From Alphaproteobacteria bacterium (lineage in GTDB: Bacteria; Pseudomonadota; Alphaproteobacteria; Rhodospirillales; WMHbin7): a DNA stretch of 64,000 bases. Every line of letters begins with the position of its first letter. Within the stretch, counting starts at the first letter, position 1. Where the stretch lies: positions 682,001-746,000 of the forward strand of contig JADGAX010000001.1 in NCBI GenBank assembly GCA_015231795.1, written 5' to 3'. The position numbers and the translations under genes are program-made. Shown in pieces: positions 1,061 through 23,181 of this stretch. The notes below the pieces were generated by a model. It did no database searches, was not told where the DNA came from, and saw only the letters and a list, made by a program, of their open reading frames with translations.

Positions 1061-1091
1061 AACCCCTGTCCCTAGTGGGATGGGGGTTGGA

Positions 1092-3127: not shown

Positions 3128-3148
3128 TCGAGGACGGAACCAAAGGTC

Positions 3149-4366: not shown

Positions 4367-4378
4367 GGGAAAAAGATC

Positions 4379-5503: not shown

Positions 5504-5622
5504 GTTGCCCTCTGTCGCCGGGCGGGATGCTCCGCATCCCTTGGCTTTCGCAAATCAGGAGATTTGCGAGGCCCCTTGGGCCTAGTCGCTGCGCTCTGTT
5601 ATTGGTTGCCCTCAGTCGCCGG
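5503..5622. repeat. Triple-hairpin element bracketed by 19-bp direct repeats
   Basis: The 19 bases at 5503-5521 recur at 5604-5622 with one mismatch, an offset of 101. Between them lie three perfect hairpins almost back to back: GGGATGC/GCATCCC with a 3-base loop (5524-5540), CGCAAATC/GATTTGCG with a 4-base loop (5549-5568), and AGGCCC/GGGCCT with a 3-base loop (5569-5583). The right copy covers the stop codon of the - strand ABC ATPase gene; the left copy abuts the pilU stop. No long T-tract follows the hairpins. It may act as a bidirectional transcript end or be a palindromic repeat element. Confidence 0.7.
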
Positions 5623-6349
5623 ATTTATTTTCGGCTTCGGTGATCGCCGCCAGGAAGGCGCGTTCCAGCGTGAGGGCTTCGTGGCGCGCGACGAATTGCT
5701 TGGGCGTCCCCACATAGATCAGCTTGCCCGCATGCAAAATGCCGATGCGCCCGCAAATTTCCTCGATGTCGGACAGAATGTGCGAGGAAAAGAAAACCGT
5801 GCCGCCATTGGCGCGGTATTCCATCAGCCGATCCTTCAGCAAGATGCGCGAACGCGGATCAAGCCCGCTCATCGGCTCGTCCAAAATCAGAAGCGGCAGG
5901 CCGGTCAGCAGGCTGGCCAACAGGCCCAGCTTTTGGCCCATGCCTTTGGAAAGCTGGCGGCCTCTCTTGGAAAGAGCTGCGGGATCAAGTGCCAATCCTT
6001 GCGCCAGCTGGCAGGCTTTGTCGCGGTCCAGCTTCAGCGCGTAGAAATCAAGCGTCAGCTTCAAGAACTCCCATCCGGTCAGCAGATGCGAGGGCATGAA
6101 CTTCTCGGGAAGATAGGCAAAGTTGCGCCGACTTTCCGGCTTTGCGGCATCCTCGCCAAAAAAGCGGAAAACGCCCTCGGCCTCGCCCAGCCCCAGCAAG
6201 GCCTTGATCAGCGTGGTCTTGCCAACGCCGTTCAGACCGATCAGGCCGAAGATTTCGCCCGGCTCGACGGCCAGCGTCAGATGTTCGAAGACCGGCGGCC
6301 CGCCATAACCGGCCTTGGCGTTCTGAATGTCGATGGGCCGTTCGGTCAT
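5612..6349 (-). CDS. ABC transporter ATP-binding protein, pilus-associated (PilH-like)
   Basis: An ABC ATPase of 245 residues: Walker A GLNGVGKT (38-45), signature LSKGMGQK (133-140; the canonical LSGGQ is altered), Walker B LLILDEP (153-159) and the switch His in SSHILSD. The sequence is of the ABC-2 exporter type (CcmA/PilH/GldA-like). No permease lies beside it, but an ABC-2 permease is encoded upstream in the same - strand run (18403-19173). The start ATG overlaps the stop of the MshK-like gene (TCAT at 6346-6349). In Myxococcus an ABC ATPase, PilH, is required for type IV pili. A similar role is inferred here from position; the substrate is unknown. Confidence 0.85.
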   Translation of the reverse strand: MTERPIDIQNAKAGYGGPPVFEHLTLAVEPGEIFGLIGLNGVGKTTLIKALLGLGEAEGVFRFFGEDAAKPESRRNFAYLPEKFMPSHLLTGWEFLKLTLDFYALKLDRDKACQLAQGLALDPAALSKRGRQLSKGMGQKLGLLASLLTGLPLLILDEPMSGLDPRSRILLKDRLMEYRANGGTVFFSSHILSDIEEICGRIGILHAGKLIYVGTPKQFVARHEALTLERAFLAAITEAENKSGD

Positions 6350-6849
6350 GGAAAGATTCCGTCCACCACCTTGTCGTCCTTGATCAGATAGGTCTGATTG
6401 GGGCTAAGCCGCACGCGAATGCTTGGCCCGGCATCGGTGTCGACATCCAGTTCGACCCAGCGCGAGGTGGCGCGCACGGGCCGAATGCCGCCCTCGACCG
6501 ATCCCGGCCTGAAACGCATGCCGTTGACCCAGGCCGACCAGTCTTTCTCGCCGTGATAGACCAGCGCCGACAGATAGATGTTGGGCTTGGCGTCCTCTTG
6601 CGGCGCGTCTTGCAGCACCTTAGGCTTGCCGTCGCCATCGGTGAAAGCCTTGGGCAATTCGGCCAGGAAGGCTTCGATCTTGTCGCTTTCCTCGGACGTA
6701 TAAAGCAGCGTTTTCGGAAATTCAGGCATCGGTTTGCCCGACAATGTTGTGCTGGTCGCCTTCTGGGCCTGCGACTGCCCATCCTGGGCCGAAACCTGCG
6801 AAAGGCAAACAAGGCTGAAAACCAGAGCAAGAAGGAATGAACGCAGCAT
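6346..6849 (-). CDS. MshK/PilP-like periplasmic pilus assembly protein
   Basis: 167 residues with a clear signal peptide (FLLALVFSLVCLSQVSAQ). The C-terminal ~70 residues show WVNG, then a short beta-type segment with SRWVELDV and a final LSPNQTYLI, the pattern of MshK/PilP/GspC homology-region proteins that bridge the inner-membrane platform and the secretin. It sits where mshK lies in MSHA clusters, after the MshJ-like gene and overlapping it by one base. The family is divergent, so the assignment rests on context and general pattern. Confidence 0.6.
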   Translation of the reverse strand: MLRSFLLALVFSLVCLSQVSAQDGQSQAQKATSTTLSGKPMPEFPKTLLYTSEESDKIEAFLAELPKAFTDGDGKPKVLQDAPQEDAKPNIYLSALVYHGEKDWSAWVNGMRFRPGSVEGGIRPVRATSRWVELDVDTDAGPSIRVRLSPNQTYLIKDDKVVDGIFP

Positions 6850-7556
6850 CAGCGACGTCCCTTCTTGTCATCGGCGCCCTGCTTCGCCGGTGGGTCTGCC
6901 GTCACCCACATGAATTCCAACTCGGCATTGATCGGAAGCGTCAGCTTCGCGTCGTTCTTGCGATTCTCCACGTCCTTGACGAAGGCTTGGCGGCTTTTGC
7001 GCTCCAGACGCATTTTTTTCAGCAGGGTAACGCCGCTTAGAGAATTCATGGCGTCATAGGCGAACTGGTAGAAGTGTCGGTCATGCACCATTTCGATGTT
7101 GATATGGACGGGGCTGGCGAACCAGTTGTAGGATTTTCCGCCAGCCGATACAGCATAATTGCCGCCAGGCTCGATATTCAGCCGATACTCGCTGAAAGGC
7201 TCAAGCCAGCTCAGCGCCACATGTCGCGCCTTGATGTCGGCCAGCAACTCGTTGGCCCGCAGACGATTCTCAGGCTCGAAAGTTCCCTTCTCCATCTCGC
7301 TTTTGTAACTGTCGGTCATCTCGCGCATGCCGGACAGTTCCTTGCGCAAGGCGGCGATCTTGCCGTCTAGCGCGGACACTTCGCCGCCCAAACGCCCCTG
7401 TTCCGCCTGCAGTCGTTCCGTCTCTGCCTCGATCTCCGGCAAGCCCAAACCCCAAAAGCCCAGATTGAGCGCCAGAACGACTGCCGAAAGAATCAAGCCT
7501 ATCGGCAACGCCCTCAAGCCGCCGCTTTCCACCATCTCTTGAAGATCGATGCGCAT
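6849..7556 (-). CDS. MshJ/PilO-like inner-membrane pilus assembly protein
   Basis: 235 residues with one N-terminal transmembrane helix (about 18-38), followed by a predicted coiled coil (about 40-85, EAETERLQAEQ and similar heptads) and a C-terminal periplasmic domain. This is the architecture of PilO/MshJ/GspM proteins, which pair with PilN-type proteins under the secretin. It follows the PilM-PilN-like gene by 2 bases. The assignment is by architecture and synteny. Confidence 0.65.
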   Translation of the reverse strand: MRIDLQEMVESGGLRALPIGLILSAVVLALNLGFWGLGLPEIEAETERLQAEQGRLGGEVSALDGKIAALRKELSGMREMTDSYKSEMEKGTFEPENRLRANELLADIKARHVALSWLEPFSEYRLNIEPGGNYAVSAGGKSYNWFASPVHINIEMVHDRHFYQFAYDAMNSLSGVTLLKKMRLERKSRQAFVKDVENRKNDAKLTLPINAELEFMWVTADPPAKQGADDKKGRR

Positions 7557-7558
7557 GT

Positions 7559-9163
7559 CTAGCCTTTCCTGCGAATAACGAAGGTGGCTTGAACGATCTT
7601 TGGCGTGCCTGCCTGCAAATGCTTGCCGGTACTGGTGAAGGTTCCCTGCGGTTTGATGTTGGTAGGCATGTCCAACACCTCGACCTCGGTTCGCGGGAAA
7701 GCCTGTTTGAAACGCTTTTCCTGATCGGCAACCGTGGCGACGATATCGGCGAGATTGCTGGTCGCCCCAGGAAACATGACCACAAGCTCCAGATTGAACG
7801 GTACGCCGCCTTGGCCATCCATCTGCGCTGCCGCAGGCGGCTTTTTCGCCTTCGCGGGATCGCCCGATTTCATCTCGACCTCAAGCCCCAGACTCCAAAC
7901 GAAGCCCTGACCATCCAGCGCCGTCTCGACGTTTCTTAGGATTTGCGGCCAATCGGCAACCTGCGTTTCCAGTGCCTGTTTGGCGCCCAGCTTGGCGGTC
8001 AGAGTTTCGAAAGGAACCTCTGCGGCAGCCATCTCGCCTTCCAGCTTTTTCAACTGACCTTGACGATCCTGCAGGCTTGCCTGACGCGTTTCGATCAGAT
8101 CGGCTGTTTCATAATTGGCGAAAACCATGTCGCCCGCATAATAGAGCTGAAACGCCGTGACCGCCGCCGCCGCCAGGGGAACCACCTTCTCGACCTGGCG
8201 CATCTGGCGCTTCTTGGCCATGGCGGGGGTGGAAAGCAAGATGGGCGCCTTGGTGCGCCTGGCCAGCCATACGGCATGCAGCATGTCGCAATAAGGGCTG
8301 TCCGGATCGGCCACCTTCTCGTAGCCCAGCTTGTTTCCGGCTTCCAGCGGGGTCAGGATCGACAGCGTGGTGACGGGAAGGTCGCGCTGATACAGGGCTT
8401 CGCGGATCGGCGCGCCGACCACGGCCACCAGATCCAGGTGATCATTTTCCTGATAGCCCAGGCGCTTGATGTAACCCAGCGACGATTTGAATTCGCGCTC
8501 GATGAGCTGCGAAATTTCCTCGGCCGTGTCCTCTTCGGCGGGCTTTGGCGTCATGCGGGTCAGGATGAACTGGCCGTTCAACTGGATGATCTGGCGAAAG
8601 CCGCCGGTCACTTCCTGGCTGACGAAGATGCGCCAATGTTTCTCGGTCTGCGCCTCGGCGGGCGGGGCCAGGGCTTCGGACAGGCCCAGGGATTCCATGG
8701 GCAGCAGCGAATAGGCTTCGACCGGATTGGAAACGGTGTCCAGAAAGGACGTCCATTTCTTCAGCCAATCGCTCATGGGCAACGCCATGAACAGATAAGG
8801 CTTCTGGCCGTTCTGTCCCTTGCGGTTCAAGGGTCTGGCGGCCTTCATTTCCTCGCTGGCATAAGCCATCTCAAGGCGGCGCTTCAGCACCTTGGGATGG
8901 TCCAGGAAATTGCTTTTGGGCAGTTGTTCTTCGCGATAAAGCTGCTCGACCACGTCCACTTCGACCAGCAGCGGAATGCGCTTGTCGGTCATCAGGAATT
9001 CGCGGATCGATTCCGGCCCCTCCTCGGAATCGATGGGCACGAACCAGGCGTTCTTCACATTGCCGCGCACCACATGCACCAGCACGGCGCCTTCGTCGCC
9101 GATGACCAGCACGAATTTCCTGACCAGCAAATGAAGGGGAAGGCCGGATTTCTTTGCCGCCAC
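7559..9163 (-). CDS. MshI-like protein: PilM-type actin-like domain joined to a PilN-type domain
   Basis: About 534 residues. The first ~310 are cytoplasmic, with a pattern consistent with an actin-like PilM/GspL fold. A hydrophobic segment follows (about 327-342), then a coiled coil and a periplasmic C-terminal domain ending in IVQATFVIRRKG, as in PilN. One chain thus covers two functions split between PilM and PilN elsewhere. I chose the GTG at 9163: GGGGA lies 6 bases upstream and it sits 1 base after the mshG stop. The ATG at 9193 would overlap mshG by 29 bases and has no ribosome site. Confidence 0.65.
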   Translation of the reverse strand: MAAKKSGLPLHLLVRKFVLVIGDEGAVLVHVVRGNVKNAWFVPIDSEEGPESIREFLMTDKRIPLLVEVDVVEQLYREEQLPKSNFLDHPKVLKRRLEMAYASEEMKAARPLNRKGQNGQKPYLFMALPMSDWLKKWTSFLDTVSNPVEAYSLLPMESLGLSEALAPPAEAQTEKHWRIFVSQEVTGGFRQIIQLNGQFILTRMTPKPAEEDTAEEISQLIEREFKSSLGYIKRLGYQENDHLDLVAVVGAPIREALYQRDLPVTTLSILTPLEAGNKLGYEKVADPDSPYCDMLHAVWLARRTKAPILLSTPAMAKKRQMRQVEKVVPLAAAAVTAFQLYYAGDMVFANYETADLIETRQASLQDRQGQLKKLEGEMAAAEVPFETLTAKLGAKQALETQVADWPQILRNVETALDGQGFVWSLGLEVEMKSGDPAKAKKPPAAAQMDGQGGVPFNLELVVMFPGATSNLADIVATVADQEKRFKQAFPRTEVEVLDMPTNIKPQGTFTSTGKHLQAGTPKIVQATFVIRRKG

Positions 9164-9164
9164 G

Positions 9165-10373
9165 CTAAATCCCCATCTTGCTGAAGCTGTCATACATGGG
9201 TCCGAAGATCGCCATGATGATCCAGGCCATCAGGGCGCCGACGATCATGGTCAGCATCGGCTCCATCATGGCGATCAGGCCGTCCACCGCGTCGTTGACG
9301 TCGGTGTCGTAAAAGCTGGTCACGTTCTCCAGCGTCTCGGACAGATTGCCGCTGTCCTCGCCGATCTTGACCATGCGGATGACCAGACTGGGAAACTCGC
9401 CGGTGTTCTTCAAGGCCGCCGAAAAGGCGTTGCCCTGTTGCACGGTGCGCTGCACGTTCTCGAGCGATTTGCTCAAGCACAGATTGTTGACCACCTTGGT
9501 CGCCGTTTCGATGCATTGCAAGATCGGCACGCCGCTTTGGAACATGACGGCGAAGAAGTGCGCGAAGCGGGCCAGGGAAATCTTGCGGATCATGTCGCCC
9601 ATCTTGGGCATGCGCAGCACAAGATAATGCATGCGGTAGCGGAATTCCTCGGAGACCGACATCAAAAGGCGGATGCCGATCAGCAGCACCACCGGCGTGA
9701 TCAAGATGACGTACCAGAAATTGATCACGAAATCGGAAGTGGCGACCAGGGCCAAGGTCACGCCCGGCAAAGGCTGGCCGGTGCCCTTCAAGAATCCGAT
9801 CACTTCCGGCACCACCATGGTCATCATGAAGAAGAACAGGCCCAGAATGACGACCAGCATGACAGACGGATAGCGCGTCGCCTTCTTGATCTTGGTCGTT
9901 ACCTCTTCGGTCCATTTCAGATGTTTGACCAGCTGCAAAAAGGCTTCGCTGAGATTGCCGCTTTCCTCGCCCGCCGAGATCAGCGAGGTGAAGACCGGGC
10001 CGAAAACGCGGGGATGCGCGCCGAAGGCCTGCGACAGCGACTTGCCCTCGGCCACCGAACTGTGGATTTCGGAAACCAGATCGCGCAGCTTGGGCTGTTC
10101 GGTCGAATCGCGCACATCGGCCAGCCCTTCGATCAGCGACACGCCCGCCGCGTTCAACTGCTGCAAATGCACGCACATCTGGATCAGGTCGCGATGCTTG
10201 ATCTTGGGCGCGAACAGCGCGGTCAGCTTGTTCTGGCGCACCTCGGACGAGGTGATCAGCTCAAGGCCCGATTCCTTCAAACGCTGGAAAAGATCAAGGT
10301 CGTTGGAGGCGCTCAACTGCCCCCGGACGGATCGTCCGCCGGTGTCGATGGCTCGGTAGTTGAAAAGCGGCAT
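9165..10373 (-). CDS. mshG: Type IV pilus inner-membrane platform protein MshG (PilC/GspF family)
   Basis: 402 residues with two GspF domains. The first carries LIEGLADVRDS and GEESGNLSEAF; the second carries MFQSGVPILQCIETA and IGEDSGNLSETL, the internal duplication typical of PilC/GspF. Three transmembrane segments follow the usual pattern (about 170-190, 215-235 and 375-395). It forms the platform driven by the assembly ATPase MshE, encoded just upstream with a 12-base gap. Confidence 0.92.
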   Translation of the reverse strand: MPLFNYRAIDTGGRSVRGQLSASNDLDLFQRLKESGLELITSSEVRQNKLTALFAPKIKHRDLIQMCVHLQQLNAAGVSLIEGLADVRDSTEQPKLRDLVSEIHSSVAEGKSLSQAFGAHPRVFGPVFTSLISAGEESGNLSEAFLQLVKHLKWTEEVTTKIKKATRYPSVMLVVILGLFFFMMTMVVPEVIGFLKGTGQPLPGVTLALVATSDFVINFWYVILITPVVLLIGIRLLMSVSEEFRYRMHYLVLRMPKMGDMIRKISLARFAHFFAVMFQSGVPILQCIETATKVVNNLCLSKSLENVQRTVQQGNAFSAALKNTGEFPSLVIRMVKIGEDSGNLSETLENVTSFYDTDVNDAVDGLIAMMEPMLTMIVGALMAWIIMAIFGPMYDSFSKMGI

Positions 10374-10385
10374 CTTGGCGGCCCC

Positions 10386-12896
10386 TTACAACCGGTCGGT
10401 CACGTCGACGGTGCCGATCAGCTCTTCCACGCTGATCAGGCCCTTCAACACCTTGCCGATGCCGTCGTCGGCCATGGGGATGAAGCCGTATTTGCGCGAC
10501 GCCTGGCGGATCATGTTCATCGAAGCCCCTTCGATGACCATTTCGTCCAGCTCCTTGTTCATGGGCAGAATTTCGTGCAGCGCCAAGCGGCCCTTATATC
10601 CGGTATGGCGGCAGGCCTCGCAACCCTTGGGATGGCCGATCTTGGGCGGATGCGCCGGATCGGCGCCCAGAACGCGGCATTCCTCGGCATTGGCCGTCTT
10701 CATCTCGCGGCAACTGGGGCACAGGCGCCGAGACAGGCGCTGGGCCAGAATGCCGATGATGTTGCCCGCCATCAAGGTGGCGTCCAAGCCAAGATCGCCA
10801 AGGCGCGGCAAAGCGCCGGCGGCGTCGTTGGTGTGCAGGGTGGTGAATACTTGGTGGCCGGTCATCGAGGCGCGCAGCGCCATGGTGGCGGTGTCCTTGT
10901 CGCGCACCTCGCCGATGAAGATGATGTCGGGATCTTGGCGCAACAGGGCGCGGACACCGTCGGCGAAATTCATGCCCGTTCCTTCGCGCACCTGCGCTTG
11001 GCGGATCAAGGGCAATTCATATTCCACCGGGTCTTCCAGCGTCATGATGTTGACGTCAAGCGAATTGATGTGGGCCAGAATGCCGTACAGCGTGGTGGTC
11101 TTGCCCGAACCCGTGGGGCCGGTGACGATGATGATGCCTTCCGGGCGCTTCAGCATTTTCAGCAACAGGGCTTCATTGCTCTCCGACAGGCCCAGTTGCG
11201 GAATGCCCATCAGCGATTTGCTTTTGTCCAGAATGCGCAGCACGATGTTTTCGCCGTGCGAGGTGGGCATGGCGGCGACGCGGAAATCGACCTTGCGGTT
11301 GCCCACCGTGATGCTGAAACGTCCATCCTGCGGGTTCAGCTTGTCGGCGATGTTCATGCCGGACACGATCTTCAGGCGGTGCGAAACGGCGGGCCAGTGA
11401 TCCTTGTGGATGGTGCGCACCTGGGTCATCACGCCGTCGATGCGATAGCGCAGGCGCAGGAACATGCCCTCAGGTTCAAAATGGATGTCGGAAGCGCCCA
11501 CTTTCACGGCGTCGAGAACCAGCGCGTTGACCAAGCGCACCAGGGGATGCACATAGCCGGAATCGGCGGACATGGCGGCGGCCGACACGTCGTGCTTGCC
11601 GGTTTCCAATTCGCGCAAGATGCCGTCAATCGACAGTTCGTAGCCGAAATACTGGTCGATGGCCTCGTTGATTTCGGTTTCGCTGCACACCAACGGGGTG
11701 ATTTCGACGCCCAGCGGGAAATAGCGCCTTGCCTGATCCAGCGCCAGAACGTCGTAAATGTCCGACATGGCCAAGCGCGCCTGCTGGCCGTCGATGGCGA
11801 CCGGGAAAACGCGATAGCGCGCCGCCACTTCCTTGGGAAATTTCTTGATCAGGTCGGGATCGACGACGGTGCTTTTCGGATCGAAACGCTCGAAGCCCGA
11901 ACTTTGCGCCAGCACGGCGGAAAGCGCTTGTTCGGTGATGAAGCCCAAATCGATCAGCGTCTGGCCGATCATCTTGTTGGTGCGCTTCTTCTCGAACAAG
12001 GCGACATGCAGCTGATCTTTCGAGATCAGCCCCATATCGACCAGCTTGTCGCCGATGCGCGCCATGCCGCCGCCACCGGGAGGAGCGCCGCCGCCACCAC
12101 CGCCGGGCGGACCGCCACCACCGCCACCGCCGGGCGGACCACCACCACCACCACCACCACCACCGCCTGGAGCGGGAGCAGGTGCTGGCGGAGCCGATTG
12201 CGCGGCAGGCGGCGCTTGGGGCGCTGGCGCTGGCGGCGCTTGGGGCGCTGGCGCTGGCTGAGCGGCGGGTTGACGGGCCTGGGGTGCGGGCGGCGTTGGC
12301 GCGCTGGCAACTGGCGTTGCGTCGCCGATCAATCCGCCCAATTGCAAACCAGCGGGCATGGGGGGCTGCGGGGGCGGCGCTTCCGGCAACGAACTACCTA
12401 CCAACTCGCCCAACTGAAACGCGGGCGCTGGCTTGGCGGCGGCGGGCGGCGGCGCGGCAGGCGGCGCAAGCTCGCCGATCAACTCGCCCAATTGCAGGCT
12501 GGATGTCTTGGCGGGCTGCGGCGCGGCGGCGGGGGCTGATGCGGGCGGGGCCGCGCCCACCATATCGCCCAGTTGGAAACTGGGGGCGGCTTTGGGTGCT
12601 GGCGCGGTAGCGGCTGGTCTGGCTGGCGCTGCGACAGCGCCGATCTCGCTCCCTAGTTCCAAAGGCTTCGAGGCTGGGCGGGCCGCTGCTGTAGGCGCTG
12701 GGGCACGGGTCTGCGGAGCCGCAGCGGCAGGCTGGCCGCCGCCCACCATCTGGCGCACGGCGGAACGCGCCGCCGCCGCCGCTGCCGCCTGCTGCTGGGC
12801 CGCCTGCGGATTTGCCGGTCTCGCCTGTCCCGCTGGCGGCTGCGCTGGCGCTTGTGGCCTGCCGCCGCCTGGCGGGTTGTTCCCGTTCATCGCCAT
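10386..12896 (-). CDS. mshE: Type IV pilus assembly ATPase MshE (PilB/GspE family) with a long repeat-bearing N-terminus
   Basis: The C-terminal ~560 residues form a complete GspE/PilB ATPase: two N-terminal MshEN-type segments (DKLVDMGLISKDQL and GQTLIDLGFITEQAL), Walker A GPTGSGKT (593-600), Walker B region DPDIIFIGEVRD, and a zinc tetracysteine CPSC...CEAC (726-729 and 759-762). MshE of Vibrio binds c-di-GMP through its N-terminal region. Ahead of it lie ~275 residues of Pro/Ala/Gln- and Gly-rich low-complexity sequence with five copies of a short [FL]xLGxx[IV]G motif, which is unusual for the family. I chose the ATG at 12896; an in-frame TTG at 12926 would add 10 residues. Confidence 0.92.
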   Translation of the reverse strand: MAMNGNNPPGGGRPQAPAQPPAGQARPANPQAAQQQAAAAAAARSAVRQMVGGGQPAAAAPQTRAPAPTAAARPASKPLELGSEIGAVAAPARPAATAPAPKAAPSFQLGDMVGAAPPASAPAAAPQPAKTSSLQLGELIGELAPPAAPPPAAAKPAPAFQLGELVGSSLPEAPPPQPPMPAGLQLGGLIGDATPVASAPTPPAPQARQPAAQPAPAPQAPPAPAPQAPPAAQSAPPAPAPAPGGGGGGGGGGPPGGGGGGGPPGGGGGGAPPGGGGMARIGDKLVDMGLISKDQLHVALFEKKRTNKMIGQTLIDLGFITEQALSAVLAQSSGFERFDPKSTVVDPDLIKKFPKEVAARYRVFPVAIDGQQARLAMSDIYDVLALDQARRYFPLGVEITPLVCSETEINEAIDQYFGYELSIDGILRELETGKHDVSAAAMSADSGYVHPLVRLVNALVLDAVKVGASDIHFEPEGMFLRLRYRIDGVMTQVRTIHKDHWPAVSHRLKIVSGMNIADKLNPQDGRFSITVGNRKVDFRVAAMPTSHGENIVLRILDKSKSLMGIPQLGLSESNEALLLKMLKRPEGIIIVTGPTGSGKTTTLYGILAHINSLDVNIMTLEDPVEYELPLIRQAQVREGTGMNFADGVRALLRQDPDIIFIGEVRDKDTATMALRASMTGHQVFTTLHTNDAAGALPRLGDLGLDATLMAGNIIGILAQRLSRRLCPSCREMKTANAEECRVLGADPAHPPKIGHPKGCEACRHTGYKGRLALHEILPMNKELDEMVIEGASMNMIRQASRKYGFIPMADDGIGKVLKGLISVEELIGTVDVTDRL
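12324..12662 (-). repeat. Five degenerate LQLGELIG-type repeats in the MshE N-terminal region
   Basis: Within a Pro/Ala-rich stretch an eight-residue motif recurs at residues 79-86 (LELGSEIG), 107-114 (FQLGDMVG), 134-141 (LQLGELIG), 160-167 (FQLGELVG) and 184-191 (LQLGGLIG), numbered from the ATG at 12896. Spacing is 28, 27, 26 and 24 residues. The motif is hydrophobic and amphipathic while the linkers are disordered-looking, the pattern of a multivalent short linear motif. Confidence 0.85.
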
Positions 12897-12978
12897 GCCA
12901 ATTCCATCAATAGGGCCTGGGGGCAATCATAACCCATTATCCAGTCTCCCACTCTAAGGAAAGCAGCCTAACAGGGGG

Positions 12979-15519
12979 TTAACCTCGCCACTCTCCCAAG
13001 GCCGCTTTTTCCAGGAAATCAGCGAAATGGGCCACGGCATCCTTGTTTTCGAACAGAACGCCCTTGGCGGCCAAAATCCGCTCGCGCATCTGGGCGCGCC
13101 AATCTCGATCCTTTGCCAGTTTTAGGGCCAGTTCCACATAATGGTCGGCGTCAGCGGCGATCAAGTCGTCGATGCCCATCATTTTATAGAATTGCGCGGT
13201 CACGCGCCCGCGCATGAAGGCCGAGGGCAAGGTGACGATAGGACTGCCATAGGCGAAGGCTTCCAGGCTGGAATTGCCGCCCGAGAAATGGAAGGTGTCG
13301 AGCAGCGCGTCGGCAGTGGCGCACAGGCCCAGGAATTCCTGATATTTCAGCGGATCGACGAAATGAACCCGCTTGAAAAGGCCGCCCAGCTCGCGCTCCA
13401 GATTTTGGCTAAGCCGCTTGGTCAGGAACGGATTGGCGTTGATGAATACGACTATGCCGTCCGTGTCGCGCTCCAGAATGCGCTTCAAGGCTTGGCGGAA
13501 TTCTGGATGCACCTTGAAAGGCGTTTGCGCGCACACGTACAGCCGCTTGTCTTCGGGCAGCTTCAGCGCTTTGCGGTCGGCCAGTTCGTCTTGCGCCAAT
13601 TTGGGATGCTGATAGCAGCAGGGCGGCAAGGGCAAACGGGCCAGCTTTTCCGTGTAATGCGATTCGTTGCCGGGGGGATCGAGATAATCGGTCGAAACGA
13701 AATAATCCATATTGGGAATGCCCGTAGTGTCGGGATGCCCCCAGGCCACCACCTGCACCGGAGCCAAGCGCGAGAAGGCCATGAAGTAGGTGTGATAGGA
13801 CATGCCGATGTCGGGGAAGAACAGAATGTCCAAACGCTCGGCTGCGATGCGCTGCAACTGTTCACCCGGCCGCAACGGAAGACGAACCACCCGGTCGGCC
13901 TTTTCGTCGATCTCGCGGGTCAGGTTGGGGCTTTGATGATAGAAGCGGAAAATCACCAGTTCGAAACGGCTGCGCGGCAGATTGGCCAAAAGGCCAGCGA
14001 ACAATTTTCCGATCGTGTGCGTGGGTTCCAAAAAGGCCGACAGCACGCCCAGCCGGATTCGCTTGCGAGGCTGGGGCCATTTTCCGGCGGCCAGATGCGG
14101 CGCCGTCCAGGTCAGTTCCTGGCAGGCCTTGGTAAAGAAGCGTCCCAGGGTTTCTTGCAGGGGGCGGTCGTCAAGCCCCGGATAGGCCTGATAGAAATTG
14201 GTCAGATTGACGCTGCTGTAAGGGTCCTTGATTTCGGCATTCGCCGCTTCCAAGGCCTGGATGGCTTCAACCTGATGCTGGCGCCATTCGCTTGCCTGTT
14301 CCATCGTGTCGTAAACGACCGGGCAGAGAAGCGCCATTTCCACCCGATAGCCCGCATCCTCCTTGATCGCCAGCCCCCGCTGATAGCAATCCTTGGCTTC
14401 CTCGACCCGCCCCATATTCTGCAACAAATTCCCCAGCGCGGCATGCAGCACCGGCAGTTTGGGCAATATCTCGATTCCGTGGCGGAAAGCGGCCTCGGAT
14501 TCGGTGAATTTGCTTTTGTTTTGCAGCAAAATCCCCAGATTCAGATAGGCTTCGCCCAGATCTGGCTTGATCTCGATGACTTCGAAATAGCAGTCGGCGG
14601 CGCTTTTGAAATCGCCGCGCGCCAAAAAGGCCGTGCCCAGATTAAGCAGAACCTCCGGGGAATCCGGTTTCAGCTTGCGGGCGCGCTGATAGCTGACGAC
14701 AGCCTCGTCCACGCGGCCCAGCAACGACAGCGCGTTGCCCAGATTATTGTGCGGCTCGACCAAATCGGGGCCAAGTGCCGCCGCCTTGCGCAAGGTGCGT
14801 TCGGCATCCACGGCGCGGCCCTGGCGCATCATGGCGTTGCCCAGATTGTTGAAGGCGCGCGCCGATTTTGGATGCGCCTTGCAATGGCGCAAGAACACCT
14901 CTTCGGCTTCGGAAAAGCGCGACTGGCGCAGCAGAATGGCACCCAGATTCGAATAGGCTTCTTCCAGCCCGGCATCCAGCGCCAAGGCTTTCGAAAAGGC
15001 CGCCATGGCGTCTTCGTCATCGCCGCGCGCATGCAAGGCCTCGCCCAAACCCATCCAGGCGGCGGCGGAATCGGCGGTATTTTCGGTTAGCGCCCGCCAC
15101 TGGGCCAAGGTGCGCCCCACCGGTTTTTCGACCAGCGGCTTGCGTCTGGCCAGTTCGGGATCAAGCCCGGTGGCCCTGGCGATCAGATGTTTGCCCAGTT
15201 GCTCCTTGCCGACTCGCTGGGCCATGACCCCCAGGAACCACAAGGCTTCCGGCTGATGAATGCGCGCCAGCAGCCAAGGGCGCAGCAGCAGACGAACCAG
15301 CAGGCGAAAGAACAGGCTGAATTTCTTGCGGGTGACGCCCGCTTCCATGATGCCCGAGGACCATCCCGCCCCCGGCCCCATGCCGTCGCCCAGCCCCAGC
15401 GTCAGGGTGGCGGTGGGAGCGGAACGTTCGATCCTGGCGTGAAAGTCTGATTCACCCAGATCGATCTCGGCGACCGATTTCTTGCGGCTGGCCGCCGCCC
15501 GGCGCTGCTGACGATTCAT
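12979..15519 (-). CDS. TPR-containing GT41 (SPINDLY/OGT-type) O-glycosyltransferase
   Basis: 846 residues. Residues ~150-400 are a run of about seven to eight TPRs (for example AYSNLGAILLRQSRFSEAEE and EAYLNLGILLQNKSKFTESE). Residues ~470-840 match the GT41 catalytic region: RLGVLSAFLEPTHTIGK, then PVQVVAWGHPDTTGIPNMDY, CAQTPFKVHPEF, LLDTFHFSGGNSSLEAF and a final YGSPIVTLP. GT41 enzymes add a sugar (GlcNAc or a related residue) to Ser/Thr. In Caulobacter a TPR-GT41 protein, FlmG, modifies flagellin. Here the gene is immediately downstream of the pilin gene, beyond a terminator, and upstream of mshE, so pilin is the inferred substrate. Confidence 0.85.
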   Translation of the reverse strand: MNRQQRRAAASRKKSVAEIDLGESDFHARIERSAPTATLTLGLGDGMGPGAGWSSGIMEAGVTRKKFSLFFRLLVRLLLRPWLLARIHQPEALWFLGVMAQRVGKEQLGKHLIARATGLDPELARRKPLVEKPVGRTLAQWRALTENTADSAAAWMGLGEALHARGDDEDAMAAFSKALALDAGLEEAYSNLGAILLRQSRFSEAEEVFLRHCKAHPKSARAFNNLGNAMMRQGRAVDAERTLRKAAALGPDLVEPHNNLGNALSLLGRVDEAVVSYQRARKLKPDSPEVLLNLGTAFLARGDFKSAADCYFEVIEIKPDLGEAYLNLGILLQNKSKFTESEAAFRHGIEILPKLPVLHAALGNLLQNMGRVEEAKDCYQRGLAIKEDAGYRVEMALLCPVVYDTMEQASEWRQHQVEAIQALEAANAEIKDPYSSVNLTNFYQAYPGLDDRPLQETLGRFFTKACQELTWTAPHLAAGKWPQPRKRIRLGVLSAFLEPTHTIGKLFAGLLANLPRSRFELVIFRFYHQSPNLTREIDEKADRVVRLPLRPGEQLQRIAAERLDILFFPDIGMSYHTYFMAFSRLAPVQVVAWGHPDTTGIPNMDYFVSTDYLDPPGNESHYTEKLARLPLPPCCYQHPKLAQDELADRKALKLPEDKRLYVCAQTPFKVHPEFRQALKRILERDTDGIVVFINANPFLTKRLSQNLERELGGLFKRVHFVDPLKYQEFLGLCATADALLDTFHFSGGNSSLEAFAYGSPIVTLPSAFMRGRVTAQFYKMMGIDDLIAADADHYVELALKLAKDRDWRAQMRERILAAKGVLFENKDAVAHFADFLEKAALGEWRG

Positions 15520-15586
15520 GACCCATCCCCATAATGACCTGCCAATCCCTTAGCACTCCCCGCAAGCAAGGTGAAGCGCTGCAACG

Positions 15587-15615
15587 AAAAAGGGCCGCGT
15601 CTTTCGACACGGCCC
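15587..15615 (-). terminator. Rho-independent terminator after the pilin gene
   Basis: On the - strand a 10-bp stem (GGGCCGUGUC paired with GACGCGGCCC, one G-U pair) is closed by a GAAA tetraloop and followed directly by five T residues. It lies 25 bases past the pilin stop. It would end most pilin transcripts and reduce read-through into the glycosyltransferase and mshE genes, a common way to make a major pilin more abundant than its machinery. Confidence 0.9.
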
Positions 15616-15640
15616 CCTTCTTCATCCAAAACGGTCTGGC

Positions 15641-16426
15641 TTATTGCAGCGCCATCAGCAAGGAACAGGCCTTGGCGGTGCTAAGCGCGTTATAGGTATT
15701 GCTGGCCGCCACGAAGCAGGTGCCTGCCGTGGTGCCGGTTCCGGCAACCGCGCCGTGGATCGACCCGGTTGTGGGGGCTGAATCGTCATATTTGCGCTCG
15801 ATCTCGGCGGCTTGACGAGGCGTTAAAGGATCGCCGGTCATAGCGCCCGCGGTGCCCAACTGGAAGCGCGCCCAAATACTGGTATCCGCCACATCGGTGC
15901 CCTGAATGATGGTATAGAAGGTATTGGCGATGCGGCCCGGCATGATGCCGCCGCTGGCCGCCGCCTGCGCCGTATTGGCCGCCGAATTCAGCGAAACGCC
16001 CGAGACCAGATTGGCCGCCGCCAAATGCGCCCAGGCATTCAAATTCTCGCCAGCGATGGCATTTGCCCCAAAAGTGGCTCCCGCAGCAGCCGCAGCCCCG
16101 ATCGTTCCGTCGCCATTGCCATCCTGAACGCCGGTGGCGCGGATGGTGGTGTTGGCGGCGTTGTAATCGCCCGGCATGGCGTTGTAGCGGTCCTGGAAAC
16201 CGTTGGTGGCCGCCTTGATGGCGTCCCACTGTGTCACAACGGCCTTCAGCCTTGTGCTGTCGATCAGTTCCTGGCCCTTCAGCACGCCGCCGATCAGCAG
16301 GCCGATGATGACCAACACGATCGACATTTCGATCAGGGTGAAGCCTTCTTCCCCATCGGCGCTTTCAAGGCGGGCGCTGATCGCGCGTTCCTTCTGAACC
16401 AGCCAATCTCTTAACATGCCAAACAT
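15641..16426 (-). CDS. Type IV major pilin precursor (MSHA-type)
   Basis: 261 residues. A 28-residue leader with several charged residues ends in EEG/FTLIEM, the cleavage site, with Glu at position 5 of the mature protein as required for assembly. The hydrophobic helix SIVLVIIGLLIGGVLKGQELI follows. The rest is rich in Ala, Gly, Thr, Asn and Ser, with two Cys near the C-terminus (GTCF and KACS) that could form the D-region disulfide. The ATG at 16426 is chosen because GGAAGGA lies 7 bases upstream; in-frame ATGs further upstream have no such site. A strong terminator follows. The neighbouring glycosyltransferase suggests it is glycosylated. Confidence 0.88.
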   Translation of the reverse strand: MFGMLRDWLVQKERAISARLESADGEEGFTLIEMSIVLVIIGLLIGGVLKGQELIDSTRLKAVVTQWDAIKAATNGFQDRYNAMPGDYNAANTTIRATGVQDGNGDGTIGAAAAAGATFGANAIAGENLNAWAHLAAANLVSGVSLNSAANTAQAAASGGIMPGRIANTFYTIIQGTDVADTSIWARFQLGTAGAMTGDPLTPRQAAEIERKYDDSAPTTGSIHGAVAGTGTTAGTCFVAASNTYNALSTAKACSLLMALQ

Positions 16427-16545
16427 GCCCCGATCCTTCCTTGTGACTTGGCCCCGCACGGGCCTGATCTTAACCATTGCCAGGGTCATTCAACACCTGG
16501 AGCAATTAACAATATCTTATAAGGGTGGTGAAATAGCTGCTTATT

Positions 16546-17700
16546 TTACGATTTGAGGGGTGATTCAGGCAAAATACCCCTATTTTTTTCCAGCCATTCC
16601 GAGGGCGAGCAGCCCGCATGCTTTTTAAACACCCGGTGGAAAGACGGCAGGGCGTTGAAGCCCGAGGCGAAGGCGATCTGCGTAATTTGTTGATCTGTTG
16701 ATAATAAAAGTCGCTGCGCTTCCTCGACCCGCAATTCGTTCAGCACATCGATCAAGGACTTGCCGAAACCCTGATTGATCACCTTCGATAAACGATGCTC
16801 GGGCACGCCCAGCGCCCTGGCCATGCTTTGGCGGTGGAAATTCTCCTTAAGCTGCGGCCGCTCGTGGTCCAGGTAGCGGCGAATCCGTTCCAGCAGCGCC
16901 AGATCGTCGTCGCCCAGCGGCAAGGGGGCCGGGGGCGGCTGGTCGGCACAAGGCAAAGGCGGCGTCTCGGCCAGGAAGGAGGGGGCCGCCGTCTCGCTGG
17001 CATGCAGGGCGAACTGGCTCGATTCGGGAAAAATGCGAAACATCATGCTGGTCGCCAGATAAATGAAGCCTAAGCCCAGGGTGATGCGGGCAAAAAGCGA
17101 CTCGTCTTGGCTGATCAGGTTGGCATGACCGGCCAGCACCGCCCCCAGCACGGCCAGATTGACGATCACGAGGCCCAGCACCAACCCTCGGCGCTCCTTG
17201 CCCTGGGGCTTGGCCTCGGCTTGGCGCAATTTCACTTCGGCCAGCGCCATCATGGCCAGCAGGATGGTCCCGCCCGCCAACACCTGCCAAAGCTGGGCCG
17301 CCGCCTGGGCTTCCACGCACAGGCTGGCCAGACAGGCATCGTCCATGGGGGCCACGCTCCCCCAATAAAGCAGCGGAGCGCCCGCCAGCGGCGCCAAAAG
17401 GATGGCGAATTGGCGCTTGTCGGGAAGGTGGGCTTCCAGCATCTGCCCGGCCAGCAGATAACTAAGGGCGGGCATGGCCCCCGCCAGGGCCGCCATCAGT
17501 CCTAGCGGCCAGGAAGGCGCGTCGTCGGGCCACAGAGGCAGGCCGAAACCGGCGGCGACGGCCAGAAAGAACAGACCGGCCAACAGGCGGCGCATTCTGT
17601 CGCCCCCGCATCCGGCCAGATAGGCCAGCAGCAACACGCACTGGATCAGCCCCATCAATTGAAAGGCCTGGGTCAGCGACAGCAAGGGATCGGTCATCAT
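16546..17700 (-). CDS. Membrane-bound AraC-family transcriptional regulator
   Basis: About 384 residues. The N-terminal ~230 contain roughly six to seven hydrophobic helices. The C-terminal ~115 form the AraC/XylS DNA-binding domain with two helix-turn-helix units: SMARALGVPEHRLSKVINQG, and ITQIAFASGFNALPSFHRVF followed by GCSPSEWL. Membrane-integral AraC regulators sense signals at the membrane. The ATG at 17700 overlaps the stop of the preceding gene (ATGA). It lies directly upstream of the major pilin gene, so it is a natural candidate for the pilin's regulator; the ligand is unknown. Confidence 0.85.
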   Translation of the reverse strand: MMTDPLLSLTQAFQLMGLIQCVLLLAYLAGCGGDRMRRLLAGLFFLAVAAGFGLPLWPDDAPSWPLGLMAALAGAMPALSYLLAGQMLEAHLPDKRQFAILLAPLAGAPLLYWGSVAPMDDACLASLCVEAQAAAQLWQVLAGGTILLAMMALAEVKLRQAEAKPQGKERRGLVLGLVIVNLAVLGAVLAGHANLISQDESLFARITLGLGFIYLATSMMFRIFPESSQFALHASETAAPSFLAETPPLPCADQPPPAPLPLGDDDLALLERIRRYLDHERPQLKENFHRQSMARALGVPEHRLSKVINQGFGKSLIDVLNELRVEEAQRLLLSTDQQITQIAFASGFNALPSFHRVFKKHAGCSPSEWLEKNRGILPESPLKS

Positions 17701-18401
17701 GGTTGGCCGCCCTCGCCCAAGCGCTGCCATTTGCGGATGCTTTTTTCCATCCCCACCATTTCCTCGGGCGTCAGATGCTTGGCGTCGGTGGCCATGATGG
17801 CGACCAGCAGTGCGATGGCCGCCTCGCGCTCGCCCAGATCGGCCAGGGCGTAGGCGGGCATGGCCCGCGTCCAGGGCGGCAGGTCGGGAATGGGCAGGCC
17901 AGCCAGTTCGCGCGCCACTTCAAGCGCCAGGCTGTTATCCTTCATGCGGTGGCGGGCCAGATAAACCGCATGGGCCAGCCAGCGCCAATTGCGGGCGTAA
18001 TCCTTGGCGGCATGGGCGCGCAGATAGGCCACCACATGGCGCACGTCCTGGCGCTTAGGCGTTATGCCGTAATATTGGGCGGCGATCACCGCCACGTAAT
18101 CCGACAGAGGATCAAGCCCATCCAGCGCCAGGAACCAACCATACAGCCGCTGATAATCGTAATCGGCCAGCGGCGTCACCTGCCCGCCGGTGTCGCCGAA
18201 ATTCTGCAAATGCAGGCCCAGCGCGCGGAACAGGAACTGATCGTCGCCCATGGCGGCCAGCTTCAGGGACAAGGCGGGCGGCGGCGGCGGGGTGATTTCC
18301 TCGTTGGCATGCATGCCCCTGCCCCACGCCCAAACAAGAAGCTGCGCCGCCAACGTCGCCAGCAAGGCCCAGGTGGCCGGGTGCGGCAAGCGAGCCAGCA
18401 T
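17697..18401 (-). CDS. Membrane-anchored protein of unknown function in the pilus cluster (possible PilG-like accessory)
   Basis: 234 residues: one N-terminal transmembrane helix (about 10-28), a Pro-rich linker, then a soluble helical region whose final third reads like TPR-type repeats. I recognise no family. The ATG at 18401 follows the ABC-2 permease stop by one base and has AAAGG eight bases upstream; the stop overlaps the AraC regulator start. In Myxococcus the pilus ABC transporter genes pilH and pilI are accompanied by pilG, a membrane-anchored accessory protein. A similar role here is suggested only by position and topology. Confidence 0.55.
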   Translation of the reverse strand: MLARLPHPATWALLATLAAQLLVWAWGRGMHANEEITPPPPPALSLKLAAMGDDQFLFRALGLHLQNFGDTGGQVTPLADYDYQRLYGWFLALDGLDPLSDYVAVIAAQYYGITPKRQDVRHVVAYLRAHAAKDYARNWRWLAHAVYLARHRMKDNSLALEVARELAGLPIPDLPPWTRAMPAYALADLGEREAAIALLVAIMATDAKHLTPEEMVGMEKSIRKWQRLGEGGQP

Positions 18402-18402
18402 G

Positions 18403-19173
18403 TCAGAACCTTTTGCGGCGCAGGTCGAAAACAGACGCCAGCAGCAGCATCGGCACGTAGACCGCCGTCTGGGCCAGCAGGAACAAGATAGTTTCCAGCG
18501 GCGGCGGGCCATGGACCAGCCAGACCGATTGCGAATAGAGGTCAAGCCTGGGCAGCAGCAGCGACAAAATTTTCAAAAGAAAGCGGACCAGCAGGCCCAA
18601 CGTCTCGCTTTGCGTCTCGTTTTCCAGAACGCGGGATTCGGCCAGCGAGACGAACACGCTCATCAGACGCGCCAGAATGTAAATGCCGCCCGACAGCAAG
18701 GCCGCCGCCACCGCCGTTTCAAGCGCCAAGGCGGCGAACAGGCCAAGCGCCGCCACGATGGCCGCTTCCATGGCCAGCGACAAGGTCCAGACGGCCAGCC
18801 CCGCCCAGCCGGGATGAAAGAAAGACAGGCCCAGCCCCATCGGTATCGCCAGCAACACGGCAACCGACGCCAGGCCCAATCCATAGGCGGCCACGAAACC
18901 CGTTCTTGAAATCGGACGGGCCAGCAGGGTTTCCAATTCGCGGTTTTCGGCCATGCGCCGCACATGGAAGGCCACGAAAATCAGGATGCCCGCCACCAGG
19001 ATGCTGCGCCCGCTGCCCGCCGCCACCGGCAAGGACAATTCGCGCCCTTCGGCCAGGGCGGCCTTGCCCAGCGCGCCCGCCACGGCATAGACCAGCGCCG
19101 TCAACCCCAGAAGGGTGACGAACAGGCGGTCGCGAAGTGCGGTCAGAAGAACATAGCGCAGGGTTGCGGACAT
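18403..19173 (-). CDS. ABC-2 type transporter permease, pilus-associated (PilI-like)
   Basis: 256 residues with about six transmembrane segments and a charged segment after the second (RRMAENRELETLLARPISRT), the pattern of ABC-2 permeases. No ATPase is adjacent. The only unpaired ABC ATPase in the surrounding - strand run is at 5612-6349, so the two probably form one exporter. The gene follows the secretin gene mshL by 40 bases. The substrate is unknown; a role in pilus assembly is inferred by analogy with PilHI. Confidence 0.75.
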   Translation of the reverse strand: MSATLRYVLLTALRDRLFVTLLGLTALVYAVAGALGKAALAEGRELSLPVAAGSGRSILVAGILIFVAFHVRRMAENRELETLLARPISRTGFVAAYGLGLASVAVLLAIPMGLGLSFFHPGWAGLAVWTLSLAMEAAIVAALGLFAALALETAVAAALLSGGIYILARLMSVFVSLAESRVLENETQSETLGLLVRFLLKILSLLLPRLDLYSQSVWLVHGPPPLETILFLLAQTAVYVPMLLLASVFDLRRKRF

Positions 19174-19213: not shown

Positions 19214-21238
19214 TCAGAAGGTCAAGGGGCGCGGGTCGCGGGTATATTTCTGGTAAAGATCACGATCGGCCGGGCTGACCGACTTTTCGGGGGCCTTGAT
19301 CACGCTGGCCCGGATCAGGACCACCAGTTCGGTCACCGCCACCGAATCGGCCTGCGCCTTGAACAGATTGCCCAGCAGCGGAATGTCCTGGGCACCGGGA
19401 ATGCCCTGCGTGTCCTTCTGGATGCGCTCTTGCATCAGGCCACCCATGATGATGGTGCGCCCGGTTGGAATGGTGACCACCGAATCCATCTCGCGCACTT
19501 CGACCACCGGCACCGCCGAGGTGATGGTCGATCCCGCCGCCGCCGCCTGCAAATCGACAGCCGGATCGTTGACCCTTCTGGCGATGCGCGAAATGGTGGG
19601 GCGCAAGCCCAACGCAATCTCGTCGGTATCCAGATTGACCGAGGGCTGCACCGTCATCACCAGACCGATCGGCACGGTGTTCATGGTGCTGGTGTAGTTG
19701 GTCGAGCTGACGCCGTTGTTGACCGTGGTTTGAATTTCCGTGCGGAAATAAACCTCGTTTTCGGCCACCTTCAGCACCGCCGTCTGATTGTTCATCACGG
19801 TCAGGCGCGGACTGGACAACGTGCGCACGGTGCCGAATTCCTTGATCAGCGACACCAAGGCCCCGATATCCTGGTTCAGATAGCCCAGCGTCATGACGCC
19901 GGTCGCCGCAGAGGAAAACGTGGTAAAGGGCGGGCCGGTGGTCGGCAAGGTGGTGGTGGTGGTGCCCGAGGCGTTCGTGCTGGAAATGCCCAGCGGCGCC
20001 GCGAAATTGATGTTGCGGTCGGTCAGCGAACGCCAATTGATGCCGGTCTTGAAGGCGTCGGCCAGCGTGACCTCGACCACCTTGGCCTCGATCAGCACCT
20101 GCGTGCTGATGGCGGCCTTGACCTGATCCAGATAGGCCTTGACCAGCTTTTGCTGGCGCGAATTTCCGAAGATGGTGACAAGGCCCGCCTGCTTGTTCAC
20201 GCTGTGATAGCTGAGCGTGGGCGACGTATAGGCGGCCGAAGCCGAAGCCGCCTGGGCGCTGGCGCCGGAAGATGGGTCGGTGGCTGCGCCGGCGGCGGCT
20301 GGTTGAGCGCCATCATTGGTGGCCTGATTGACGGCATTGGTGGTGGCAGCCGCCACGCCCTGGGCCGCCGCCGCCGGATTGGCGACGTTCTGCGCCTTCA
20401 AAGACATTTGCGAACCGGAGGTCTGCGATGCCCCTTGCTGGCTGGCGCCATTGGGATTGGCGGCGGGCTGCGCCGACGTCGCGTTCGGATTGACCTTGCC
20501 TAACTGGGATTGCGACAAGGTGGGCTGATTGCGCGGATCGGAATTTTGCAAGATCTGCTTGATGTTGTCGCCCACCTCTTTCCAAAGATCGGCTTCCGAC
20601 GAACCATCGACCGAACTGGACGAGGAATTGCCGCCCGCAGCACTGCCGCCCGAGACGGCGGCGAAGACGTCGGTATTGGTTTCAACTTTGCTCGCACTTT
20701 TGCGAATCAGGTTGATCGCATCCAGGCGGTAATTCACCTGATACATGGTGTCCAGCTCGACCCTGAGAACATTGTTCTTCAGGCTGTAGCGCAATCCGGC
20801 CAGTTCTGCGATGCGGTCGATCACCTGGGGGAACGGGCGCTCATGCGCCGAAAAGATGATGCCGCCAGATACGTTGGGATCAAGTTCAAGATCGACCGAC
20901 GCCTTGCGGGTCAGTTCCATCAGAACGTCTTTTAAGGGGACGCTGTCGTTCACCTCGATCGAGACCAGACGGGTCTCCAGCGAATTGGGCGGCGCGGGAG
21001 CGGCCAGCACGGGCTGAAGATCGGGAATCGGCGGCGCTTCCTTGGGCTTGGCCTCGGGCGGGCGGCGATCCTTCAGCGCCTCGTAATCATCCTTGGACAG
21101 GCCAGCGGCGCGGTCGTATTTCAGGTCCTTGTCGTTGCAGCTGGACAGGGAAAGCACAGCCATAAGGGCGGCAAGGACGACCAGTCCCCGCCCGGCTCTG
21201 CGTCGCAAGTCCTTCAACTGTCCGTCCCGATTACCCAC
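19214..21238 (-). CDS. mshL: MSHA-type outer-membrane secretin MshL (lipoprotein)
   Basis: About 674 residues. The N-terminus has a lipoprotein signal ending in LSSC (Cys34 from the chosen start). A secretin/TonB short N-terminal region follows (VNDSVPLKDVLMELTRKASV), then a long Ser/Asn/Ala/Gln-rich insert, and the C-terminal secretin domain (ISTQVLIEAKVVEVTL, FGTVRTLSSPRLTVMNNQTA, VPLLGNLF). It forms the outer-membrane pore for the pilus. The start is uncertain: the GTG at 21238 gives a normal lipoprotein signal and has GGAG just upstream, while a start at 21346 would put 36 atypical residues in front. Confidence 0.88.
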   Translation of the reverse strand: MGNRDGQLKDLRRRAGRGLVVLAALMAVLSLSSCNDKDLKYDRAAGLSKDDYEALKDRRPPEAKPKEAPPIPDLQPVLAAPAPPNSLETRLVSIEVNDSVPLKDVLMELTRKASVDLELDPNVSGGIIFSAHERPFPQVIDRIAELAGLRYSLKNNVLRVELDTMYQVNYRLDAINLIRKSASKVETNTDVFAAVSGGSAAGGNSSSSSVDGSSEADLWKEVGDNIKQILQNSDPRNQPTLSQSQLGKVNPNATSAQPAANPNGASQQGASQTSGSQMSLKAQNVANPAAAAQGVAAATTNAVNQATNDGAQPAAAGAATDPSSGASAQAASASAAYTSPTLSYHSVNKQAGLVTIFGNSRQQKLVKAYLDQVKAAISTQVLIEAKVVEVTLADAFKTGINWRSLTDRNINFAAPLGISSTNASGTTTTTLPTTGPPFTTFSSAATGVMTLGYLNQDIGALVSLIKEFGTVRTLSSPRLTVMNNQTAVLKVAENEVYFRTEIQTTVNNGVSSTNYTSTMNTVPIGLVMTVQPSVNLDTDEIALGLRPTISRIARRVNDPAVDLQAAAAGSTITSAVPVVEVREMDSVVTIPTGRTIIMGGLMQERIQKDTQGIPGAQDIPLLGNLFKAQADSVAVTELVVLIRASVIKAPEKSVSPADRDLYQKYTRDPRPLTF

Positions 21239-21388
21239 CGTCTCCAAATCCCGGATACCCGTTGCACCCCAGGGCAGGCATCTTTGCCCCTGCTTATAGC
21301 TCTTCCAATCCAACTCACAATATATAGGGCTTTTTTGGGTTTGCATCAACGAGATATTGTTGGCCGCGACTCGGCGGATTTCCTGGGT

Positions 21389-22135: not shown

Positions 22136-22137
22136 TA

Positions 22138-23178: not shown

Positions 23179-23181
23179 GCG

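Follow-up and report, generated by a model that had tools for sequence, protein, structure and literature searches.

A putative pilus-dedicated ABC system split across the MSHA-type pilus operon of an alphaproteobacterium

In the current view, motors of the MshE/PilB and PilT types drive type IV pili. To our knowledge, the PilGHI system of Myxococcus xanthus has stood since 1998 as an isolated and poorly explained exception. The PilG, PilH and PilI proteins of this bacterium form an ABC-exporter complex that shares its promoter with pilA (PMC3546991), and deletion of pilGHI leaves the cells defective in S-motility (PMC5544727). According to the passage of PMC3724824 that cites Wu et al. 1998, the three proteins are essential for pilin translocation across the inner membrane. 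In the MSHA system of Vibrio cholerae, the 'ABC ATPase' labels fall on the ExeA-like MshM and on MshE in the part of the source that names these genes (PMC4624765). We found no papers on ABC genes in MSHA operons; the search covered part of the literature, so that this is weak evidence of novelty.

An MSHA-type operon with ABC genes

The window analysed here is a stretch of 64,000 nucleotides (G000:C1:682001-746000) from a 3.6 Mb alphaproteobacterial genome, the nearest named relative found being Rhodospirillaceae bacterium LM-1 (L052), which is 100% identical over a 559-residue MshE query. A single co-directional run of minus-strand genes extends from mshN (24729) to an ABC ATPase (5612), and the ABC parts sit at two places within it. 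From 5' to 3', the run consists of mshN-like and mshM-like genes, a prepilin peptidase, an mshL-type secretin, the permease, an anchored protein, a membrane AraC-type regulator, a prepilin, a TPR glycosyltransferase of the GT41 kind, mshE, mshG, mshI, mshJ, mshK and the ABC ATPase:

21389..24729, minus strand: head of the run (mshN-like, mshM-like, prepilin peptidase), a gene run kept in relatives
24729-23182, minus strand: mshN-like gene, named by order and weak similarity
19214..21349, minus strand: mshL-type secretin, directly upstream of the permease
18403..19173, minus strand: ABC-2-type permease (P0002, 256 aa), intact ORF, immediately downstream of mshL; the last TM helix is preceded by an invariant PRLD
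17697..18401, minus strand: anchored helical protein (P0003, 234 aa), intact ORF, N-terminal TM helix and TPR-like solenoid, predicted periplasmic
16546..17730, minus strand: membrane-embedded AraC-type regulator (P0004), between the anchored protein and the prepilin
15641..16489, minus strand: prepilin (P0005) of the GGVLKGQE(L/M)I type
12979-15519, minus strand: TPR-GT41 (O-GlcNAc-transferase-like) enzyme, between the prepilin and mshE
6849..12926, minus strand: core assembly genes mshJ, mshI, mshG and mshE, the MshE with a c-di-GMP-binding domain
6346..6849, minus strand: mshK-like gene, directly upstream of the ATPase
5612..6349, minus strand: ABC ATPase (P0001, 245 aa), intact ORF, last gene of the run

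The MSHA-type gene set mshI/J/K/L/M/N/E/G is thus present in one run, the names of I, J, K, M and N being given by gene order and weak similarity; in the model search, the MshE-related c-di-GMP-binding domain scored above its cut-off, and GspE/PilB and GspF-type matches were obtained as well. The start codon of the ATPase gene and the stop codon of mshK lie in a 4-base overlap, and a single base separates the anchor and permease genes. No Rfam elements were detected in positions 1-30000 of the window, and promoter and terminator scans yielded results at the chance level. The preliminary description of this DNA had pointed to an unpaired ATPase and an unpaired permease that bracket the pilus genes co-directionally, and to a membrane-anchored protein next to the permease. 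Both observations hold: the ORFs are intact and belong to one minus-strand run, and the protein at 17697-18401 (234 aa) has one N-terminal TM helix. Below, the ATPase, the permease and this protein (the anchor) are referred to as the trio.

Several other features of the region deserve mention. In the MshE of the window (10386-12926, minus strand), the c-di-GMP-binding domain is preceded by an N-terminal extension, nearly 290 residues long and rich in Pro, Ala and Gly; the MshE-like ORFs of most other families are roughly 550-640 aa long. The AraC-type DNA-binding domain is attached to a multi-TM part and is encoded directly upstream of the prepilin, so that the protein may control the pilin gene from the membrane. 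The TPR-GT41 enzyme may glycosylate the pilin. A converging plus-strand group (window 1080-5503) of a prepilin-like gene, a lytic-transglycosylase-like TPR protein, PilT and PilU adjoins the pilus run, and the placement of the PilT/PilU group beside this run is conserved in relatives.

The ATPase matches PF00005 above the cut-off (9.9e-20), is closest in type to the DrrA/NodI/GldA/NosF-type ATPases, and has intact Walker A, Walker B and H-loop motifs that are invariant across its orthologues. Its signature, LSKGMGQK, had been read as degenerate; this argument falls because SKGMxQK is normal for the clade, where [YLF]SKGMxQK is the rule for nearly all pilus-linked ATPases (NosF has YSKGMRQR). 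The best paralogue in the same genome is NosF (37% identity), which is encoded on contig C10 in a nosF-nosY pair among other nos-like genes; another ATPase of this genome (C10:29554) also adjoins an ABC-2 permease. The search of this genome gave no second match to the permease, and NosF comes with a NosY-like permease of its own. The DrrA-like ABC ATPase at C4:54257-54907 (L041) of the same genome has no adjacent permease, so this genome alone leaves a rival pairing possible, and it is the relatives that settle the partnership.

Taken alone, the window permease matches none of the Pfam ABC-2 models; ABC2_membrane_2, ABC2_membrane_3 and ABC2_membrane_4 are matched by up to 5 of the 19 members of its family, with best E-values of about 2e-6 to 6e-6. 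The PRLD motif is invariant in the alphaproteobacterial permease family. The structure model, built from four sequences, is poor (pLDDT 51). In a profile comparison with the genome's own NosY, the score was above the controls and the similarity was not significant. One other genome (G400) contains a second permease copy (L151:9143-9961, minus strand) that lacks an adjacent anchor; its neighbours are metabolic genes, with mshN/pilT/pilU-like genes at a distance of about 4 kb.

The anchor has no other match in the window's genome, and a plasmid search gave none on plasmids. It reaches the cut-off of no family model and matches none of the Pfam ABC-accessory families. In the AlphaFold2 model (pLDDT 89), the single TM helix spans 8-29, and a TPR-like helical solenoid comes after it. 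The solenoid is predicted to be periplasmic since the N-terminal flank of the TM helix is the more positive one in most members of the family. Foldseek and VIA-align return many TPR proteins at similar scores, including MamA, PilF, SycD and YfgM; with matches so numerous and unspecific, we do not claim any specific structural relative. Because solenoids of the TPR-like kind are widespread, the fold is a poor guide to how the anchor acts.

Conservation of the trio with the pilus genes

All three genes of the trio occupy the same positions in LM-1 (G003) and in G002, both of the same genus as the window's genome, and in G004, from another genus; in G001 and L056, the ATPase follows mshK and the contigs stop before the permease position. 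Altogether, 15 other genomes (G001-G004, L056, G101, G115, G198, G208, G234, G327, G334, G400, G415 and G457) have the ATPase gene immediately after an mshK-like gene, and in G148, it follows an mshJ-like gene. Among 385 genomes sampled across the class, 13 besides the window's own have the anchor, with G457 among them a weak match. In each of the other 12, which come from 10 families, the permease adjoins the anchor. The msh genes of G208 and G400 are scattered, yet the permease-anchor pair remains by mshL and the ATPase by mshK. Outside the window's family, an AraC-type regulator is encoded after the anchor in 7 other trio loci of Alphaproteobacteria.

A survey of the trio against mshL and mshE bears out the proposed link: the permease-anchor pair lies directly after mshL in 10 of the 12 loci, and the ten genomes with the highest MshE scores (623 bits or more) all carry the anchor. 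MshE was found at E 1e-120 or better in 26 genomes of the class sample besides the window's own; in the sixteen with lower scores (616 bits or less), any sign of the anchor is confined to G457. The msh loci of 14 of these sixteen were read and are without the trio, and the permease profile has no match in 15 of the sixteen. It also has none in G027 and G098, two genomes from the same order with MshE 60% and 56% identical, where no trio gene was found. With the ATPase profile, five trio genomes give scores of 339-358 bits and no score elsewhere exceeds 173 bits; the 17 genomes that have MshE without the trio show no orthologue at this level. In G434, G325 and G522, where the permease and the anchor are present, no ATPase exceeds the threshold; these assemblies are fragmented near the loci or incomplete.

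Mapped on the MshE tree, the root of which is arbitrary, the presence of the trio calls for five changes, and well-supported branches force three of these. This pattern agrees with an early origin of the trio and repeated loss, often from small genomes; given the arbitrary root, gains would be compatible with it as well. The objection that relatives might carry the pilus genes without the ABC genes applies only in part: close relatives keep the trio wherever the contigs reach, more distant MSHA-type operons lack it, and no trio gene was found in G027 and G098. Since such operons occur, the module is not a requirement for all MSHA-type pili.

Across the phylum, the anchor profile detects the protein in 33 of 398 genomes, and it does so in 30 of the 48 genomes in the class around G522; this second class is suggested to be Magnetococcia. 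Among 20 loci of this class that were read, the permease and the anchor are adjacent in 16, the ATPase is nearby in 11, and pilin or msh genes are present in 19; the order anchor-pilin-ATPase occurs in 8. The pilins beside the second-class trio are of the same type as the prepilin of the window (GFTLIE...GGVLKGQE(M/L)I...PGDY). No AraC-type regulator was seen in these trio loci, and profile searches of G484, G490 and G487 gave neither an anchor nor an ATPase orthologue. In the phylogenetic tree, the ATPases linked to pili group in a single clade for both classes (24 rows, support 99/97), apart from own-genome paralogues, of which NosF is the nearest relative.

The small genome of G457 (1.7 Mb) shows an apparent fusion of the permease and the anchor. 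A single ORF of 386 residues (L083:9403-10563, minus strand) consists of a permease-like part followed by an anchor-like part; the latter matches at 1e-18, and the former, for which the permease profile stays below the threshold, was recognised by eye and by order. A divergent ATPase follows mshK on another contig of this genome, and forms a long branch just outside the main pilus-linked clade.

Conserved linkage, co-occurrence and the apparent gene fusion together lend strong support, from comparative sequence analysis, to the conclusion that the ATPase, the permease and the anchor constitute one ABC system that serves the pilus specifically, with its genes at two places of the pilus operon. 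A pilus-dedicated transporter had been suspected from the window, and the dedication is now backed by a trio kept beside pilus genes in two classes.

Possible action of the trio

Two copies of the ATPase and two of the ABC-2 permease would form an engine in the membrane, with the membrane-anchored TPR-like protein on the periplasmic side. ATP hydrolysis would move the permease, and the motion would be passed to the anchored TPR domain, as has been proposed for NosFY with NosD. This domain would be a periplasmic arm that acts on prepilins or pilins and on the assembly platform. It might, for instance, insert, extract or hand over subunits, and would not serve the export of an ordinary small solute. 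The pilin neighbours of the trio and the lack of a recognised cargo-making gene favour action on pilins over solute export, although only moderately. That the trio is one ABC machine dedicated to the MSHA-type pilus, with the anchored domain acting on pilins or on the assembly machine, appears to us evenly poised between right and wrong. A fuller version, in which an ABC machine with a periplasmic TPR-like arm would be unrelated by descent to PilGHI, ancestral to the MSHA-type pili of Alphaproteobacteria and Magnetococcia, and engaged in insertion, extraction or hand-over of pilins, is offered tentatively and is, as a whole, rather unlikely.

By descent, the trio could instead be an orthologue of M. 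xanthus PilGHI that joined MSHA-type operons, a proposition compatible with any mechanism. It is suggested by the same make-up, an accessory protein, an ATPase and a permease beside a pilin gene, and by the organisation of pilA-pilG-pilH-pilI as one operon in M. xanthus, where deletion of pilGHI abolishes S-motility (PMC3546991, PMC5544727). The anchor, however, resembles no ABC-accessory family in Pfam, and we regard orthology as a serious possibility, albeit on the unlikely side.

A true exporter tied to the pilus would carry a cargo with which the pilus is decorated or assisted; a peptide, a lipid or a lipid-linked glycan would be candidates. Export is a common activity of ABC-2 transporters, the affinity of the ATPase to the DrrA/NodI/GldA/NosF types is in keeping with this role, and the operon of the window encodes a TPR glycosyltransferase. 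The glycosyltransferase, however, was not found in the G002 operon, which keeps the trio, or in most other trio loci, and no conserved cargo-making gene was recognised beside the trio, so that export seems doubtful. A narrower idea, dependence of the trio on the TPR glycosyltransferase, is rejected on account of G002.

A sensory ABC module of the BceAB type would report the state of the envelope or of the pilus to the membrane AraC-type regulator, which would control the pilin gene downstream. The position of the AraC-type protein, between the anchor and the pilin in the window and after the anchor in the 7 other alphaproteobacterial loci, fits this scheme. The gene is, however, missing from the second-class trio loci and from several alphaproteobacterial ones and so does not always accompany the trio: signalling through the AraC-type protein may occur in Alphaproteobacteria but would not be a general function, and as an account of the trio it is improbable. 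Finally, a chance neighbourhood of an ATPase and a permease from other systems, to which the 12 kb between them in the window and the DrrA-like ATPase without an adjacent permease might point, is barely credible given the conserved positions, the joint presence and absence, and the apparent fusion.

If the trio is indeed an ABC machine acting on pilins, it would add to MshE and PilT another step powered by ATP. Conservation of an ABC trio in the MSHA-type pili of two classes would make ABC involvement recurrent in pilus biology and give context to a family of anchored TPR-like proteins. The organisms that bear the trio would also allow the long-standing question of the role of an ABC transporter in a pilus to be tested.

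Comparison with described systems

The closest ATPase in the same genome belongs to NosF-NosY-NosD, which, like the trio, combines an ATPase and a multi-TM permease with a third, periplasmic protein. The fold of NosD is not TPR-like, unlike that of the third protein of the window. The similarity of the permease to NosY is not significant, and the neighbours in the window are pilus genes, not nos genes. The trio falls outside NosDFY, with the pilus ATPases forming a clade separate from NosF and located in pilus loci. GldA-GldF-GldG resembles the trio in its ATPase (99.6 bits with the GldA model) and in its tie to a surface machine; this score is far from the equivalog cut-off of 402.6 bits, and no GldF or GldG model is among the matches of the permease or the anchor.

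The locus shares with the MSHA system of Vibrio cholerae the mshI, J, L, M, N, E and G-type genes, whereas neither an ABC-2 permease nor an anchored TPR protein of the kind found in the window appears among the genes named in the relevant part of the source (PMC4624765). The likeness to PilGHI lies in the make-up: in both cases, an ABC ATPase, a permease and an accessory protein are encoded beside a pilin gene. This adjacency is seen in the 8 second-class loci with the anchor-pilin-ATPase order; in the window, only the AraC-type gene separates the anchor from the prepilin. In M. xanthus, the three genes and pilA lie side by side within a pil locus of type IVa, whereas the ATPase and the permease of the window are split across an MSHA-type operon, with a TM-anchored TPR-like protein as the accessory component.
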